Source: a virus
IMG/VR virus record: IMGVR_UViG_3300006919_000378
Location: 1 to 26,158 of that record
Strand: one strand, 5' to 3'
Length of the DNA stretch: 26,158 bases
Shown in pieces: positions 18,164 to 24,901 of the stretch. The notes under the pieces were generated by a model. The model saw only the letters and a program-made list of their open reading frames with translations. It had not been told where the DNA came from and did not search any database. Position 1 is the stretch's first letter, and each line of letters begins with the position of its first letter. The translations under genes and the position numbers were made by a program.

Positions 18164-18535
18164 TCTTGCCTTTTTAAAAAATTCTGGAATAGTGAATGTG
18201 TGGGGTCTTATATATTCAACTCCCCCACAAAAATTATACGGAGGCTACCCCCCGCACTTTCTGTAGCAGCATGCGTGTTTTCCTGCGTCAAACACAAAAG
18301 CATGCTTTGCTAGCAGAAAGCTTTGCTCATGTCAGATGGCTTTGCCATCTGCCATTCAACTCATGCCAAACCTCATTCATGTTTTGCTTGTGCAAGCACA
18401 AAGCAAACCATTCATGCTTTCTACAATGATCTTTGCAAGATCATAGTATAAAGGCGGTTTGTCAACTTCCCTTGCAAGCTTGCGCTTGCTGCGGTCAAAT
18501 CAAGCTGCGCTTGTCAACCTTATGTAGTAACGCTA
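18164..18535. repeat. 400-base noncoding stretch with cluster of small perfect hairpins
   Basis: No credible gene is seen here. After a TGTGGGG/CCCCACA stem (18199-18229), the interval 18297-18513 holds: the palindrome AAAGCATGCTTT (18297-18308); CAGATGGC-TTT-GCCATCTG (18333-18351); TGCTTG-TG-CAAGCA (18385-18398); ATGATCTT-TGC-AAGATCAT (18426-18444); the palindrome GCAAGCTTGC (18474-18483); and CAAGC-TGC-GCTTG (18501-18513). The word CTTTGC or TTTGC recurs in or beside most of the loops. It lies near the divergence of leftward and rightward genes, so an origin is possible. An RNA role is also possible. Confidence 0.55.
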
Positions 18536-18545
18536 TTCCTTTCTT
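18536..18545 (+). promoter_or_regulatory. TTCCTTTCTT motif, copy 1
   Basis: Shortest of seven matches (the run continues GTC instead of TT). It lies 30 bases before the ATG of the 54-aa gene at 18566. Its role as a phage-specific transcription or leader signal is inferred from repeated placement. Confidence 0.45.
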
Positions 18546-18565
18546 GTCAGCAAATTATTAAAATT

Positions 18566-18730
18566 ATGGAAAATCTAACAGACTTATTAGAGTACGTAAA
18601 GCGTAATAACCTTCAAGAAGACTTCAACAAAGTCTTAGAAGTAATTACTTCTATTGAACCAGGAAAATCAAAAGATTTTTGGTTCATTTTAGGAAACTAT
18701 GCTGTATGTATAGAAAAAGAGAAAGCTTAA
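18566..18730 (+). CDS. 54-aa small acidic early protein
   Basis: This 54-residue protein begins MENLTDLLEYVKRNNLQEDF and ends FILGNYAVCIEKEKA. The first 30 residues form an amphipathic helix pair. It has a clean ATG, coding-like composition, and its own terminator, whose stem overlaps the last four codons and stop (18720-18748). The motif TTCCTTTCTT lies 30 bases upstream. No family was recognised. Being a complete single-gene unit like its neighbours is the main argument that it is real. Confidence 0.6.
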   Translation: MENLTDLLEYVKRNNLQEDFNKVLEVITSIEPGKSKDFWFILGNYAVCIEKEKA

Positions 18731-18748
18731 CAGCTTTCTTTTTTTTTT
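18720..18748 (+). terminator. Rho-independent terminator of 54-aa gene
   Basis: AGAAAGCT-TAAC-AGCTTTCT gives an 8-bp perfect stem (18720-18739) followed by nine T. The T-run flows directly into motif copy 2. Confidence 0.85.
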
Positions 18749-18758
18749 CCTTTCTTTT
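18747..18758 (+). promoter_or_regulatory. TTCCTTTCTTTT motif, copy 2
   Basis: It directly follows the terminator T-run and is followed by the structured noncoding interval 18786-19034, not by a protein gene. Confidence 0.45.
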
Positions 18759-18785
18759 CAAAAAATGTTTATACACATGACCATG

Positions 18786-19034
18786 CTATGCTAACATAGA
18801 GGGGGGATTGTGAGAGCTGTGACTAGTACTCACAGGAGAGGGAATGTAGGCCCTTAACATTTTTTTAAATAAAAGGCGTGTGTATGCTCTGTAGTGGAGC
18901 AAGCCAGCCTTATTAATATAGATGTGGATAGGAAACCACGTTAAAAAACTTGCCACGGCAATCTATAAGCGTAAGGATAGGACTTAGCAGTGCCTAAATA
19001 ACACAAGAGGGGTAACTACCCAACTGCTATTTTT
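18786..19034 (+). ncRNA. Candidate structured noncoding RNA (~250 nt) with own terminator
   Basis: This is noncoding by inspection, with dense nested stems: CTATG-CTAA-CATAG (18786-18799); TGTGAG/CTCACA (18809-18814 with 18829-18834); AATGT/ACATT followed by T7 (18843-18861); AAGGC/GCCTT (18873-18877 with 18907-18911) enclosing TGCTC-TGTAGTG-GAGCA (18885-18901). A junction is closed by TATAGAT/ATCTATA (18917-18923 with 18961-18967) and contains GTGG/CCAC (18924-18939) and TTGC-CACG-GCAA (18950-18961). A final TAGCAGT/ACTGCTA stem (18985-18991 with 19023-19029) holds GGGT-AACT-ACCC and is followed by T5, like a terminator. GGATAGGA occurs twice. No known RNA class was recognised. The strand is inferred from the terminator and neighbours. 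Confidence 0.6.
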
Positions 19035-19044
19035 CCTTTCTTTT
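19033..19044 (+). promoter_or_regulatory. TTCCTTTCTTTT motif, copy 3
   Basis: It overlaps the T-run ending the candidate RNA and lies 45 bases before the ATG at 19078, which heads a three-gene unit. Confidence 0.5.
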
Positions 19045-19077
19045 TTAAAAAAATTGTTAATCATAAAACTTCTAGCT

Positions 19078-19215
19078 ATGAAGAAATCTCTTTTTAGCCG
19101 TCTGCTTATTGACGGCATCCTGCACTACGTGCAGACCATCACATACTCTGACGGTAAGTCCGTCAAGCGCATTGTTGACGGTCAAGGAAACTTGGTCAAA
19201 GTTGAAAAGCTTTGA
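19078..19215 (+). CDS. 45-aa small basic early protein
   Basis: This 45-residue protein begins MKKSLFSRLLIDGILHYVQT and ends RIVDGQGNLVKVEKL. It has alternating strand-like segments (ILHYVQTITYSDGKSVKRIV), suggesting a tiny beta fold. It uses more GC-rich codons than its neighbours. The ATG follows motif copy 3 by 45 bases. Its stop codon overlaps the TTG start of the next gene (TTGA), so the two are likely co-translated. No family was recognised. Confidence 0.6.
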   Translation: MKKSLFSRLLIDGILHYVQTITYSDGKSVKRIVDGQGNLVKVEKL

Positions 19216-19358
19216 CTCTCTTTGCCGTTAAGGTAGCTACGCCTAGTGGTGTGGCTACCATCAATGTTCTTGCTGCCAGTAAATGGCATGCCATGGACAT
19301 TGTAAAGAATAAATTAATTGAAGGCAGAATCATATCTGCCAAACCTAAAAAAATATAA
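19212..19358 (+). CDS. 48-aa small protein starting at TTG
   Basis: The only in-frame start is TTG 19212, embedded in the stop of the previous gene (TTGA overlap). The product has 48 residues: it begins (M)TLFAVKVATPSGVATINV and continues LAASKWHAMDIVKNKL to a Lys-rich end. The strand-then-helix pattern (KVATPSGVATINVLAAS, then KWHAMDIVKNKLIEG) reads like a genuine folded domain. It ends 5 bases before the membrane-protein ATG. A start at a later codon is possible but would remove the strand. No family is known to me. Confidence 0.5.
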   Translation: MTLFAVKVATPSGVATINVLAASKWHAMDIVKNKLIEGRIISAKPKKI

Positions 19359-22218: not shown

Positions 22219-22551
22219 ATGAGCAGAATAAAAAATTATTATCATGACCTATTTGAGTGGCAACACCTCTGTGAGAATAATGACAGAATGGAAATGCCAT
22301 ACTGGCTGTTAGAGCATTACAACATGTCAGAGTATGATGCCACAGCTATGGGAATCAGAGTCCAGTCACTTGCACCTCTAGATGACTATACAGATGAGGA
22401 GAAAAACTATTTCTACTTCCTGCAAAACAAGTATGACAATGAAAAACTCAATGAAGAGTTTGAAAAGCTTAAGCCAGGAGAGCGTATGATTATAGGAATA
22501 TCTGTAGATGAACATGGTAATCATTATGAAGAATACCTCACAAAAGAATAA
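22219..22551 (+). CDS. 110-aa acidic early protein (unknown)
   Basis: This 110-residue acidic protein is rich in Tyr, Glu and Asp. Helical segments include LFEWQHLCENNDRMEMPYWL and EEKNYFYFLQNKYDNEKLNE. The C-terminus is strand-like (ERMIIGISVDEHGNHYEEYL), as in a small alpha/beta fold. It has no membrane span or catalytic motif. The dispersed 17-bp motif lies just upstream and the first TGCGTCA palindrome (22555-22572) begins 3 bases after the stop. An acidic, compact protein in this region could be a DNA-mimic inhibitor, but nothing specific supports that. The 112-aa opposite-strand frame is a shadow. Confidence 0.6.
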   Translation: MSRIKNYYHDLFEWQHLCENNDRMEMPYWLLEHYNMSEYDATAMGIRVQSLAPLDDYTDEEKNYFYFLQNKYDNEKLNEEFEKLKPGERMIIGISVDEHGNHYEEYLTKE

Positions 22552-22554
22552 AAA

Positions 22555-22726
22555 TGCGTCATCAGTGACGCACATAACAACAATAGAGTATATACTTCTT
22601 ATGTTATATTCTATTGTTAGGTTATAAGAAAAGCCACGTAAGTGGTTCATAGCTAGTGAGTTAAAAGTGAATTTAGATACAAGTTTTGCGTCACAGGTGT
22701 CGTACCTATGCGTCACCAGTGTCGCA
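22555..22726. repeat. Three copies of TGCGTCA-type palindrome plus long hairpin
   Basis: Copy 1 is TGCGTCA-TCAG-TGACGCA (22555-22572, perfect 7-bp arms). Copies 2 and 3 are TGCGTCACAGGTGTCGTA (22687-22704) and TGCGTCACCAGTGTCGCA (22709-22726). Between them AACAATAGA/TCTATTGTT (22579-22587 with 22610-22618) forms a further stem with extra A/T pairing inside. The third copy ends about 60 bases before ATG 22786. Suggested reading: operator-like or iteron-like sites. No gene lies in this 234-base gap. Confidence 0.55.
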
Positions 22727-22785
22727 TTCTTGTAAAATCACTTAAAATTTATTACCTTTATTAAATCAAAGAAAGAGTAAAGCGT

Positions 22786-22995
22786 ATGAAAATAGTAGCA
22801 TGGCAAGCTACACCTAATGGAAAGGTAAAACTTGCAATCAAAACATACAGAAATGACATGTACAAAATTGTCATAGTAGATAACATACATGGATTAGATG
22901 ATATCTTATCTGATATACCTGAAATAACAGGTTCAGATGTAGATGCAATGACAGAGTACTTGTACTCAACATATCATTGGAATCCAGTAATCTGA
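22786..22995 (+). CDS. 69-aa small protein before structured RNA region
   Basis: This 69-residue protein begins MKIVAWQATPNGKVKLAIKT and contains strand-turn-strand (VAWQATPNGKVKLAIKTYRN), a second strand (MYKIVIVDNI) and a helix (VDAMTEYLYSTY). It looks like a compact alpha/beta domain with no motif I recognise. Its stop codon directly abuts the first stem of the noncoding region (22996), so that RNA could be its 3' untranslated part. The TGCGTCA palindromes lie upstream and may regulate it. A 61-aa opposite-strand frame is a shadow. Confidence 0.6.
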   Translation: MKIVAWQATPNGKVKLAIKTYRNDMYKIVIVDNIHGLDDILSDIPEITGSDVDAMTEYLYSTYHWNPVI

Positions 22996-23187
22996 TTTGG
23001 GTCAGAATAAACAGGTGCTTAAGCCCAAAGCGTTGGAGAATAATCTCCAGGTGCACTCAGGAGGAGTTGGCAGCGTAGACACCATAGCGGTGAATGCTGT
23101 AGGTAGACAACAGTTTCCTAGGAACTGCCTTAGACACACCGAAGATTAGTAGGTGTGTTTAAAAACTTGTCAAAAGAATAAGTTTTT
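22996..23187 (+). ncRNA. Candidate structured RNA upstream of the Ro60-like gene, 5' module
   Basis: About 190 noncoding bases with six or seven stems in series: TTTGGG/CCCAAA (22996-23001 with 23024-23029); TGGAGA-ATAA-TCTCCA (23034-23049); ACTC/GAGT (23055-23067); CAGC/GCTG enclosing CACC/GGTG (23071-23099); CAGTT-TCCTAGG-AACTG (23111-23127); ACACACC/GGTGTGT (23134-23158); AAAAACTT/AAGTTTTT ending in a T-run (23161-23188), which could terminate it. TAGACA occurs three times between the stems (23076, 23104, 23131). No T-arm motif of a tRNA-like fold was seen. It is a candidate ligand for the downstream DUF2828 protein, by analogy with Y RNAs beside Ro60 genes. That link is inference. Confidence 0.55.
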
Positions 23188-23191
23188 TGAA

Positions 23192-23464
23192 AGATTGATT
23201 CAGCATTAATACATCAGTAATAAAGCAACACACAGATCAATCTGATTACACCAACGGCTAAAGGATGATTCAGCAGTATCTATAATCATTAACTACACAT
23301 AACATCCTGACCGTTATTTAAAAACAAAGATTATGTCAGCAGTCTCTATAACTACAACAACACTAGAGAGGCTTTCCGTATAAGGGGAATCCATAATCTG
23401 TACTATTTAACACCCCTTGGAAAGCCACAAATTAACAACAGGGGAGAGTGTAATAGCTCTCCCC
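23192..23464 (+). ncRNA. Candidate structured RNA / leader, 3' module before DUF2828 gene
   Basis: Further stems lie here: AGATTGAT/ATCAATCT (23192-23199 with 23236-23243); a nested set AACGG/CCGTT (23253-23257 with 23311-23315), GGATG/CATCC (23263-23267 with 23303-23307) and ATGATT/AATCAT (23265-23270 with 23284-23289); GGCTTTCC/GGAAAGCC (23370-23377 with 23419-23426) continued by AAGGGG/CCCCTT (23382-23387 with 23413-23418); and the perfect GGGGAGAG/CTCTCCCC (23441-23448 with 23457-23464). TCAGCAGTATCTATAA (23270-23285) repeats with one mismatch at 23336-23351. It may be the leader of the DUF2828 gene, or the second half of one ~470-base RNA. No gene is seen between 22996 and 23506. Confidence 0.5.
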
Positions 23465-23506
23465 AAAATTAAATCAAATCTAAATCAAATCACAAATATC
23501 AAAGCT

Positions 23507-24901
23507 ATGACAAACGTAACACTAACACAAGCACTACAAGACATCCAAACTTTAACTGATAACGGTTGTGTAACCAACCAGACATCTATGGACAAATGTC
23601 TAGATATGTTCTTCCTAGCAGGAGCATCTAGACATATGTCTACTGATGATATCATTAGAGTTTGGAACAGTGCCTATGCTGAAAACCCCCAACTAGCCTG
23701 TAAAATCTTGTATTGGGCAAGAGATTGCAGAGGAGGGGCAGGAGAGAAGAGATTATTCCAAACCATAATGTCTTACTTGTATAAAGTTGATAGAGATTTA
23801 TTCTCACAGCTTATTATACATATTGAGGAGTATGGTTATTGGAAAGATATCTTCAAATCTGCCCAGCCTGATGCTGATATGCTAAACTATTTAGCTACTC
23901 AGTTGGAGGAATCAGATAACGCAGGCTTACTCGCTAAGTTCTTTCCGAGAAAGGGAGAATGGTTCAATGCTATGCGTAAATACAAAGGTTGTACACCTAA
24001 AGATTTACGCAAGTACATTGTATCCAAATCCCAAACGGTTGAGCAGAAGATGTGCGCGCAAGATTGGAGTAACATCCAATATGAGCATGTACCATCTGTT
24101 GCCATGAAGAACTATGGTAGAACCTTTGCTGTCAAAGATGAGAAACGTTACACCAAGTATATAGAGAATGTCCTTGCGGGCAAAACCTCTATCAATGCAG
24201 GTGTGCTTCATCCTCATGAACTTATCCTTAAGCTAGAAAGAGACAACATTGATGCCATTCAGGCTCAGTGGAGTAATCTTATAGATTATATGGAGGGTAG
24301 TGAGGAGAGGTTGTTTCCAATTTGCGATGTCTCAGGTTCTATGAGCGGTTTGCCTATGGAGGTGTCTGTTGCTTTAGGGCTTTACATATCTGAAAGAAAC
24401 AAGTCTTGTTTCAAGGATTATGTGATGACCTTCAGTGAAAATCCCCAGTTCCATCATGTAGTTGGTAACAACATATATGAGAGAGCTACAAGTCTGTATC
24501 AAGCAGATTGGGGGATGAGCACTGATCTAGAAAAAGTTTTTAAACTTATACTAGATAAAGCAGTTGAACATAACGTATCTCCATCAGATATGCCAACTAA
24601 GCTACTTATCATTAGTGATATGGAGTTTAATCAGGCTACTGATACCAAGGAGAGTGCTTTGCAATACATTAGCAGGATGTATGCTGAAGCAGGTTATGTC
24701 AGACCTGATATCATCTTTTGGAACGTAAACGGAAGACTTGGTAATGTACCTGCAAAGTGCAATACTCAAGGTGTGGGATTGGTCAGTGGATTTAGCCCTT
24801 CCGTGCTACAGTCAGTTCTTCAAGGGTCTGTAGAGACTCCTATGGAGCTGATGCTCAGAACTGTAAACGTAGAGCGTTATGACCGTATAGTCATAGCGTA
24901 A
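23507..24901 (+). CDS. DUF2828 protein: TROVE/Ro60-like helical half plus vWA domain
   Basis: The ATG at 23507 (MTNVTLTQALQDIQ) is chosen over an in-frame TTG at 23417, because the extension would run through the GGGGAGAG hairpin. The product has 464 residues. Residues ~30-235 match the DUF2828/TROVE-like helical-repeat pattern: DMFFLAGASRHMSTDDIIRV, ENPQLACKILYWARDCRGGA followed by GEKRLF, then EYGYWKDIF, QKMCAQDWSNIQYEHVPSVA followed by MKNYGR, and INAGVLHPHEL. Residues ~265-455 form a von Willebrand A domain with an intact metal site: D274-x-S276-x-S278 in CDVSGSMSG, T339 in GMSTDL and D371 in ISDMEF. Ro60/Rsr proteins of this build bind structured noncoding RNAs. DUF2828 is the variant found in viruses and plants, with no established function. 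A terminator follows. Confidence 0.85.
   Translation: MTNVTLTQALQDIQTLTDNGCVTNQTSMDKCLDMFFLAGASRHMSTDDIIRVWNSAYAENPQLACKILYWARDCRGGAGEKRLFQTIMSYLYKVDRDLFSQLIIHIEEYGYWKDIFKSAQPDADMLNYLATQLEESDNAGLLAKFFPRKGEWFNAMRKYKGCTPKDLRKYIVSKSQTVEQKMCAQDWSNIQYEHVPSVAMKNYGRTFAVKDEKRYTKYIENVLAGKTSINAGVLHPHELILKLERDNIDAIQAQWSNLIDYMEGSEERLFPICDVSGSMSGLPMEVSVALGLYISERNKSCFKDYVMTFSENPQFHHVVGNNIYERATSLYQADWGMSTDLEKVFKLILDKAVEHNVSPSDMPTKLLIISDMEFNQATDTKESALQYISRMYAEAGYVRPDIIFWNVNGRLGNVPAKCNTQGVGLVSGFSPSVLQSVLQGSVETPMELMLRTVNVERYDRIVIA

Follow-up and report, generated by a model that had tools for sequence, protein, structure and literature searches.

A phage gene for a Ro60-like DUF2828 protein, the CAGCA-stem RNAs linked to such genes, and a predicted Pistol ribozyme upstream

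We analyzed a stretch of 26,158 nucleotides of viral DNA (IMG/VR virus record IMGVR_UViG_3300006919_000378, positions 1 to 26,158; henceforth the window, from the window phage), focusing on a gene for a Ro60-like protein and the noncoding bases in front of it. The open reading frame (ORF) runs on the + strand from an ATG at 23507 to a stop at 24901 and encodes 464 amino acids (aa). It is separated by 511 bases from the stop codon of the upstream ORF (22995), and the + strand of this gap holds no listed ORF other than a TTG-started extension (23417) in the frame of the gene itself. The preliminary description of the locus, made from the letters alone, had called these 511 bases noncoding and structured. 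This is borne out by the ORF list and by the fold of 23053-23475, which reaches -111.1 kcal/mol (z-score -5.33), with 0 of 100 shuffles equally stable. The perfect 8-bp G/C stem noticed then is read directly from the sequence, with GGGGAGAG at 23441-23448 pairing with CTCTCCCC at 23457-23464; this G/C-rich hairpin (23441-23464, + strand) lies between the RNA and the start codon. The block had been treated as a single RNA, however, and here the description fails: it is a composite that starts with a predicted Pistol self-cleaving ribozyme (22991-23056), followed by two different RNA elements, a 5' domain (23059-23162) and three repeats that we call CAGCA units (23190-23436).

The 464-aa protein (23507-24901, + strand) matches the Pfam families DUF7788 (E = 4.9e-49) and DUF2828 (PF11443; E = 3.4e-35, 122.1 bits against a curated cut-off of 29) as well as PHROG 850, annotated as 'RNA-binding protein' (E = 3.2e-126). 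We compared an AlphaFold model of the protein (predicted local distance difference test, pLDDT, 77.9; predicted template modeling score, pTM, 0.67) with known structures. Foldseek matched the predicted model to the TROVE domain 9kop (E = 6.4e-7), to Ro60 1yvr (1.1e-5) and to the Thermus phage Ro60 9l5y (1.4e-4), and VIA aligned 390 of the 464 residues to 9kop with a Z of 15.5, and gave 11.7 to the D. radiodurans Rsr 2nvo. As modeled, the protein has the Ro60/TROVE fold, a helical-repeat domain followed by a von Willebrand factor A (vWA) domain, in agreement with the TROVE-like half and vWA domain originally proposed. The metal ion-dependent adhesion site (MIDAS) was also rightly described as intact: none of D274, S276, S278, T339 and D371 varies in an alignment of 21 proteins. 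Relatives of the protein occur in 674 of 50,697 phage records. Felix O1, KVP40 and phages of mycobacteria, Listeria, Campylobacter and Vibrio are represented; among the matches listed, most are annotated as hypothetical or RNA-binding.

The RNA nearest the gene, 23190-23436, consists of three tandem CAGCA stems on the + strand, each opposite a long loop. Unit 1 (23190-23244), recognized from the repeat family and the unit test below, has its stem at 23193-23199/23236-23242 and its CAGCA at 23201-23205. Unit 2 (23260-23309; stem 23263-23267/23303-23307, CAGCA 23271-23275) is enclosed by AACGG 23253-23257/CCGTT 23311-23315. Unit 3 (23326-23426; stem 23329-23335/23392-23398, CAGCA 23337-23341) may form a pseudoknot through a crossing stem at 23370-23377/23419-23426, within which AAGGGG 23382-23387 faces CCCCTT 23413-23418. 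The eight Watson-Crick pairs of this crossing stem were matched in 3 of 100 shuffles. It is clear in L260, L261, L270 and L271 (0 of 100 shuffles), weaker in L277 (2), L273 (5), L274 (9) and L272 (13), and absent in L276 (49); the crossing stem of the last unit is not universal.

We found the same units in relatives. Among 47 records retrieved through their terminase, two (G132 and G174) carry DUF2828 genes, whose proteins are 55% and 54% identical to that of the window. Their upstream non-coding stretches share the arrangement AAAG-stem-TCAGCA-...-stem'-CTG, with stems that differ yet remain complementary. Neither Pistol nor the 5' domain was found in the 47 records, an empty result that is weak alone, given that the same Pistol family and 5'-domain model do detect the window. 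A unit search of loci gave matches directly 3' of the DUF2828 gene in 15 further loci, several of them near-duplicates (L004-L014, L017, L031, L037 and L038), and one match at another place (L157). Two other kinds of match were taken as chance. A window-unit pattern gave eight hits in virus contigs beyond the same phage, of which seven lie in long open frames of one strand and the other (L171) lacks a unit stem in its fold, and a 46-base BLAST match to Lactococcus phages had an E of 0.01.

For counting, we defined a unit as 5-9 Watson-Crick pairs starting with G, 0-4 bases, CAGCA, the complement, any base and G; the complement had to start at least 12 bases after the C of CAGCA and end within 160, and units were counted within 450 bases either side of the gene. 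The discovery set yielded 34 units in 22 of 32 DUF2828 loci. These loci were hand-picked, near-identical and truncated ones were omitted, and several had been seen before the pattern was fixed. Sixty dinucleotide shuffles gave a mean of 0.32 units (maximum 2), and other phage loci held 84 units in 1.71 million strand-bases, or 0.044 per 900 bases. Replacing the core with 150 random 5-mers gave a mean of 1.0, in a draw that included CAGCA itself and in which two shifted forms of it, ACAGC (17) and TTCAG (15), and then TTACA (7) came next. With the pattern frozen, new virus loci contained 42 units in 27 of 44 (40 shuffles: mean 0.175, maximum 1; coding control 2), and new genome loci contained 6 units in 5 of 25 (shuffle mean 0.5, maximum 2; coding control 1). 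The virus set comprised 65 of 80 loci (15 on already-seen contigs were dropped), reduced to 44 by de-duplication within the set; the genome set comprised 27 of 34 loci (7 partial ones were dropped), reduced to 25. De-duplication was confined to each new set, and the units of at least L290 and L344 are nearly identical to those of the discovery loci L012 and L030, respectively.

The base pair just outside the stem is not imposed by the pattern. We examined it in 78 units (30 from a subset of the discovery loci and 48 from new loci), of which 76 are distinct and hold 60 distinct stems. The flanking bases pair in 71 of the 76 (AU 56, UA 9, GC 5 and GU 1). Shuffling the partners gave a mean of 50.0 (standard deviation 2.2) and never reached 71 in 5000 trials, a comparison that ignores relatedness. 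In 62 of the 76, CAGCA is followed by A. The CAGCA units are linked to DUF2828 genes, and they covary. The canonical Ro60-binding motif, GNCGAAN0-1G, is absent from the three leaders tested.

Several named phages carry units: Listeria phage P100 has three directly 5' of its DUF2828 gene, Mycobacterium phage Faith1 three downstream, Felix O1 one downstream and Campylobacter phage NCTC12673 one upstream. No units were found at the DUF2828 loci of KVP40, phiM7, S-CoN_Ph8 and XbC2, nor at a Ro60-like gene in record G004. Some missed loci show variant cores by eye (L018, L027 and L041), and others show nothing. A long structured leader at all DUF2828 genes was considered and rejected. Of 36 other loci in which the ORF could be read, 32 have only 24-122 bases between it and the preceding gene. 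When gaps of at least 80 bases were folded, the four longer ones (L019, L020, L024 and L040) had z-scores of -2.0, 0.0, -0.2 and 0.1, and one short gap (L029, 88 bases) had -3.6. Short upstream gaps are no general argument against a linked RNA because the RNA lies downstream in many such phages. In L260, also a relative, seven T follow a possible long-range stem directly 5' of the DUF2828 gene.

The 5' end of the block, 22991-23056 on the + strand, matches the Pistol family RF02679 over its full length (model positions 1-68 of 68) with 51.1 bits against a gathering cut-off of 34.5 (E = 9.1e-7). The match spans P1, P2, P3 and the conserved core, and the loop-junction pseudoknot is present, the P1 loop TTTGGG complementing CCCAAA ahead of GCGT. 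Pistol alone exceeded its Rfam cut-off in this region; three further matches (E = 0.96-1.8) fell far under theirs. Pistol cleaves at the GU joining P3 and P2 (Harris et al. 2015, PMC4604425), and by this rule the predicted cut would fall between G23051 and U23052. By analogy, the products would carry a 2',3'-cyclic phosphate and a 5'-OH. The stop codon of the upstream ORF falls within the first stem of the ribozyme, so the two are probably transcribed continuously; Pistol overlaps the upstream stop codon in the same way in L088.

Pattern scans of IMG/VR for Pistol cores returned many phage loci. We tested 80 of them, from 93 stretches (left out were the loci of the window phage, L055 and loci numbered after L127), and 75 exceeded the Pistol cut-off (48 of 50 and 27 of 30); phage Pistols in other contexts are therefore not rare. 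Two records place Pistol near a gene for RtcB, which ligates the type of ends that Pistol produces. In G004 (L152, G004:20000-34000, - strand), a Ro60-like gene, 13 tRNAs, Pistol and RtcB are clustered on one strand in about 6 kb, with Pistol amid the tRNA cluster and the RtcB ligase after it. In G078, an RtcB gene (58355-59443) and Pistol (60307-60376) lie within 1 kb.

The ribozyme product would begin with the 5' domain (23059-23162, + strand), which has four helices and an 11-nt loop, GAAGATTAGTA. Besides the window phage, five loci (L063, L064, L088, L121 and L128) carry window-like sequence 3' of the ribozyme; L166 and the truncated L165 joined the family later. The covariance model R1, built from four sister-phage sequences with the window excluded, finds 23059-23162 with 38.6 bits (E = 9.7e-5, 541 kb). 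In a further 86 sources, searched with E up to 5, it returned five family members and one reverse-strand match in L088 (E = 0.19). In the alignment of seven sequences, 161 of 161 cells pair, with two-sided changes in 12 of 24 pairs, and sliding the partner by 1-3 columns drops pairing to 29-45%. This alignment was made to fit the structure, and in most of the two-sided changes it is the window that differs from the other sequences. The 5' domain covaries strongly in sister phages. Conservation and covariation of the upstream stems in relatives, which the preliminary description had offered as its own check, were found in both the 5' domain and the units.

Its distribution differs from that of the units. 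Pistol and the 5' domain occur together in the sister phages L063, L064, L088, L121, L128 and L166. One of these phages, G020, is a sister to the window phage. Of 95 ORFs of 90 aa or more called mechanically in the 110-kb record G002, 40 are matched in G020 by tblastn, and the G020 terminase shows 57% identity. In G019, G020 and G077, the 5' domain is followed by genes other than DUF2828. DUF2828 (phrog_850) was not found in these three records, nor TROVE in G019, G020, G044, G077 and G084, all possibly incomplete; the record of L166 was included in neither test. Model R1 found no 5' domain in 39 other DUF2828 loci. Because the 5' domain and Pistol are present where DUF2828 was not found, they form a cassette independent of it, and we rejected the whole block as one DUF2828-specific RNA. 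The dedicated RNA partner originally proposed thus survives for 23190-23436, which covaries and is linked to DUF2828, and not for Pistol and 23059-23162, which are not DUF2828-specific.

Sister phages show other features around this cassette. A 13-codon ORF (ATG AAG TTT GTA ... TAG) runs through the 5' domain in L063, L088 and L166, and not in the window. Another structured RNA, of the CAGGCAGTTGTA... type, ends just 5' of the ribozyme in L063, L121 and L166, and occurs also in L163 near 7120. A conserved element, TAACCGTGGGAAGTTAAAGCA, precedes a terminator-like hairpin at L063 5359-5379 and in eight further loci (9 in total); the window holds no copy of a relaxed form, even with 3 mismatches allowed. 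L163 and L164 have a downstream gene and element in common with the sister phages, and their records show no Pistol.

The relative L270, whose DUF2828 protein is 54% identical to that of the window, carries the 5' domain at 659-725 (model R2, which includes the window sequence; E = 3.3e-5), followed by two CAGCA units and the gene. Most of the fourth helix of the domain is absent in L270, and two pairs are non-standard. Directly 5' of the domain, in the place of Pistol, lies a hammerhead core (CUGAUGA, GAAA and GUC, with three stems). The three-stem fold has -20.1 kcal/mol and its stems were confirmed by a scan, and the match stays under the Rfam cut-offs (RF03152, 32.6 bits against 56.3, E = 0.08; RF00008, 24.6 against 48.5). 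Scanning 4.6 million strand-bases for hammerheads gave 6 distinct hits, namely L270 and five in four Pistol-pattern loci. Cleavage after GUC, as predicted for L270, would yield UGCACUGCAUGAAGUU, whose first 16 bases are those of the L063 Pistol product and whose first six (UGCACU) are shared with the window product. That two ribozyme classes would make one end suggests, from this one case, that the 5' end itself matters.

We searched the literature on Ro60/Rsr, Y RNA and phages, in which coverage of subscription journals is thin. It returned one related proposal and no defined DUF2828 RNA family; for DUF2828 itself, it returned plant papers only, judged by title. According to the accessible part of a report on Listeria phage CKA15, abundant noncoding RNAs (ncRNAs) from the region 26,236-26,727 lie within 2 kb upstream of the Rsr-like gene CKA15_055 on the same strand, and its authors proposed them to be Y RNAs (PMC12282133). 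CKA15_055 is presumably P100 gp165, given the 'P100-like' wording of that paper. The same part of the report defines no motif or family for these ncRNAs, whereas P100 shows three CAGCA units and a ROOL-like RNA. The latter, at 2420-2971 on the + strand of P100 (L178, DQ004855; 86 bits against a gathering cut-off of 99.1, E = 3.6e-16), is flanked by tRNA-Pro and tRNA-Met some 1 kb 5' of the DUF2828 gene, and may be one of the abundant ncRNAs of CKA15. Table 1 of the CKA15 report lists CKA15_055 in purified virions with 20 peptides and 57.1% coverage (PMC12282133), so Rsr-like proteins may travel in the virion. A survey of jumbo phages, in its accessible part, treats TROVE proteins under RNA repair (PMC7824862).

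We consider it probable that the locus encodes a phage ribonucleoprotein (RNP) that works like the bacterial Ro60-Y RNA particle, with 23190-23436 as its cognate RNA. A dedicated RNA partner predicts a covarying RNA beside DUF2828 genes in distant phages, and the linked units support this reading. The gene at 23507-24901 would make the Ro60-like protein, and the three CAGCA stems, the last possibly pseudoknotted, would be its RNA, with relatives adjoining DUF2828 genes, upstream or downstream, in many phages. In the window phage, this RNA would be made in a longer transcript from which Pistol would remove the upstream part. Cleavage would leave a 5'-OH RNA starting UGCACUC with the conserved structured 5' domain, which may act as a protective or recognition cap for the accessory RNA or mRNA behind it. 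We infer that the DUF2828 protein binds the CAGCA units and that the predicted Pistol cuts in vivo; protein and unit RNA would then assemble into a counterpart of the Ro60-Y RNA particle. Our best guess, in view of the virion protein and ncRNAs of CKA15, the jumbo-phage survey and the G004 gene cluster, is that this particle serves RNA quality control or repair in infected cells.

Several observations weigh against this proposal. Rfam contains Y RNA families, and no Y RNA family match to the units was reported from Rfam 15; no Rfam 15 family at all matched the units in the stretches searched (E up to 5, 0.5, 0.1 and 5). Pfam TROVE (PF05731) gave no match to the protein at an E cut-off of 0.1 and was found in none of seven records. 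The strict unit pattern finds nothing in 10 of the 32 discovery loci, in 17 of the 44 new virus loci and in 20 of the 25 genome loci, and the flanking-pair shuffle, blind to relatedness as it is, concerns pairs of which 56 of 71 are of one type (AU). Some records with the 5' domain yielded no DUF2828, and among 13 other DUF2828 loci searched with model R2 the domain was found in L270 only. Pistol was not found in 39 other DUF2828 records; although an empty result is weak evidence, Pistol is for this reason not a general part of DUF2828 loci.

Alternatively, the CAGCA units could be a cis-acting control element of the DUF2828 mRNA, serving autoregulation or translational control, and not a separate partner. 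Autoregulation would likewise yield close linkage and covariation, and the window, like its closer relatives, does have the units in the leader just 5' of the start codon. Units of the same structure, however, lie 3' of the stop codon in many phages (L004, L006, L012, L017, L026, L030 and others), and we regard a cis-acting role as unlikely. The units could also be substrates or sponges, for instance repair substrates on which other phage enzymes act, and accompany DUF2828 simply because both belong to RNA-repair islands close to tRNA clusters. This would fit the tRNAs found downstream in 17 of 40 DUF2828 loci scanned (several near-duplicates, with limited flank), those near the gene in Felix O1, P100 and a Campylobacter phage, and the proximity of a Ro60-like gene, tRNAs, Pistol and RtcB in G004. 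We nevertheless think it improbable, for the units have no Rfam match and the 110-kb record of the window phage, in which ARAGORN detects no tRNA, keeps three of them.

At its simplest, the locus would involve transcript processing only: Pistol would cut the message of the upstream gene away from that of DUF2828, and the remainder would be ordinary leader structure. The overlap of Pistol with the upstream stop codon in the window and L088, and the frequency of phage Pistols in other contexts, would both be expected on this account. Both domains downstream of the ribozyme covary, however, and the linkage of CAGCA units to DUF2828 extends to records that yielded no Pistol. Already disfavored by this linkage, processing alone is very improbable.

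The remaining features of the window bear on its setting. The upstream ORF (22786-22995, + strand, 69 aa) comes from the ORF list and has no assigned function, as Pfam and PHROG searches gave no match. Before it, the intergenic stretch 22551-22786 is strongly folded (z-score -8.1) and contains three GCGTCA-type copies. A hairpin-rich region at 18430-19345 is also strongly folded (z-score -10.7), has nothing over the cut-off in Rfam and is surrounded by three copies of a TTTTCCTTTCTTTTC-like sequence. ARAGORN found no tRNA in the window; no structure search aimed at tRNA mimics of the YrlA type was made. By terminase, the nearest named relatives are uncultured 'cr' phages (about 25% identity), which we take to be crAss-like. 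Bacteroides and Flavobacterium phages are among the 120 records matching the terminase, so a host in the Bacteroidota is likely.

Taken together with the RNP proposed above, these data suggest a broader reading, to which we give about even chances: DUF2828 proteins and CAGCA-stem RNAs would form a general phage RNP, a viral counterpart of Ro60-Y RNA in hundreds of phages of many hosts, whose protein may enter the virion. In crAss-related phages, the RNA would be matured by exchangeable Pistol and hammerhead ribozymes that give the same 5' end on a shared cap. With a conserved RNA linked to it, a protein of unassigned role becomes a testable RNP, in phages that can be grown in ordinary laboratory hosts. 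For natural phage Pistol and hammerhead ribozymes, these findings also supply a definite product whose 5' end is conserved, and this is relevant to the purpose of phage self-cleaving ribozymes.

We compared the locus with known systems. Large structured RNAs are known from phages as ROOL and GOLLD, often near tRNA islands, according to the accessible part of PMC12286853; the window RNA is likewise a structured phage RNA but has no reported Rfam match to them. Compared with known Pistol ribozymes (RF02679), the one described here is coupled to a conserved product domain and is replaced by a hammerhead core in L270. As predicted, the two-domain fold of the DUF2828 protein is common to bacterial Ro60 (Rsr) with its Y RNA, the Thermus phage phiLo Ro60 (9l5y) and the TROVE domain 9kop, and an RNA encoded beside the protein gene is common to Ro60-Y RNA and DUF2828/CAGCA loci. 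Unlike the Ro60-Y RNA system, these loci have DUF2828/DUF7788 rather than Pfam TROVE and RNAs built of tandem CAGCA stems, which in the window phage stand behind a ribozyme.

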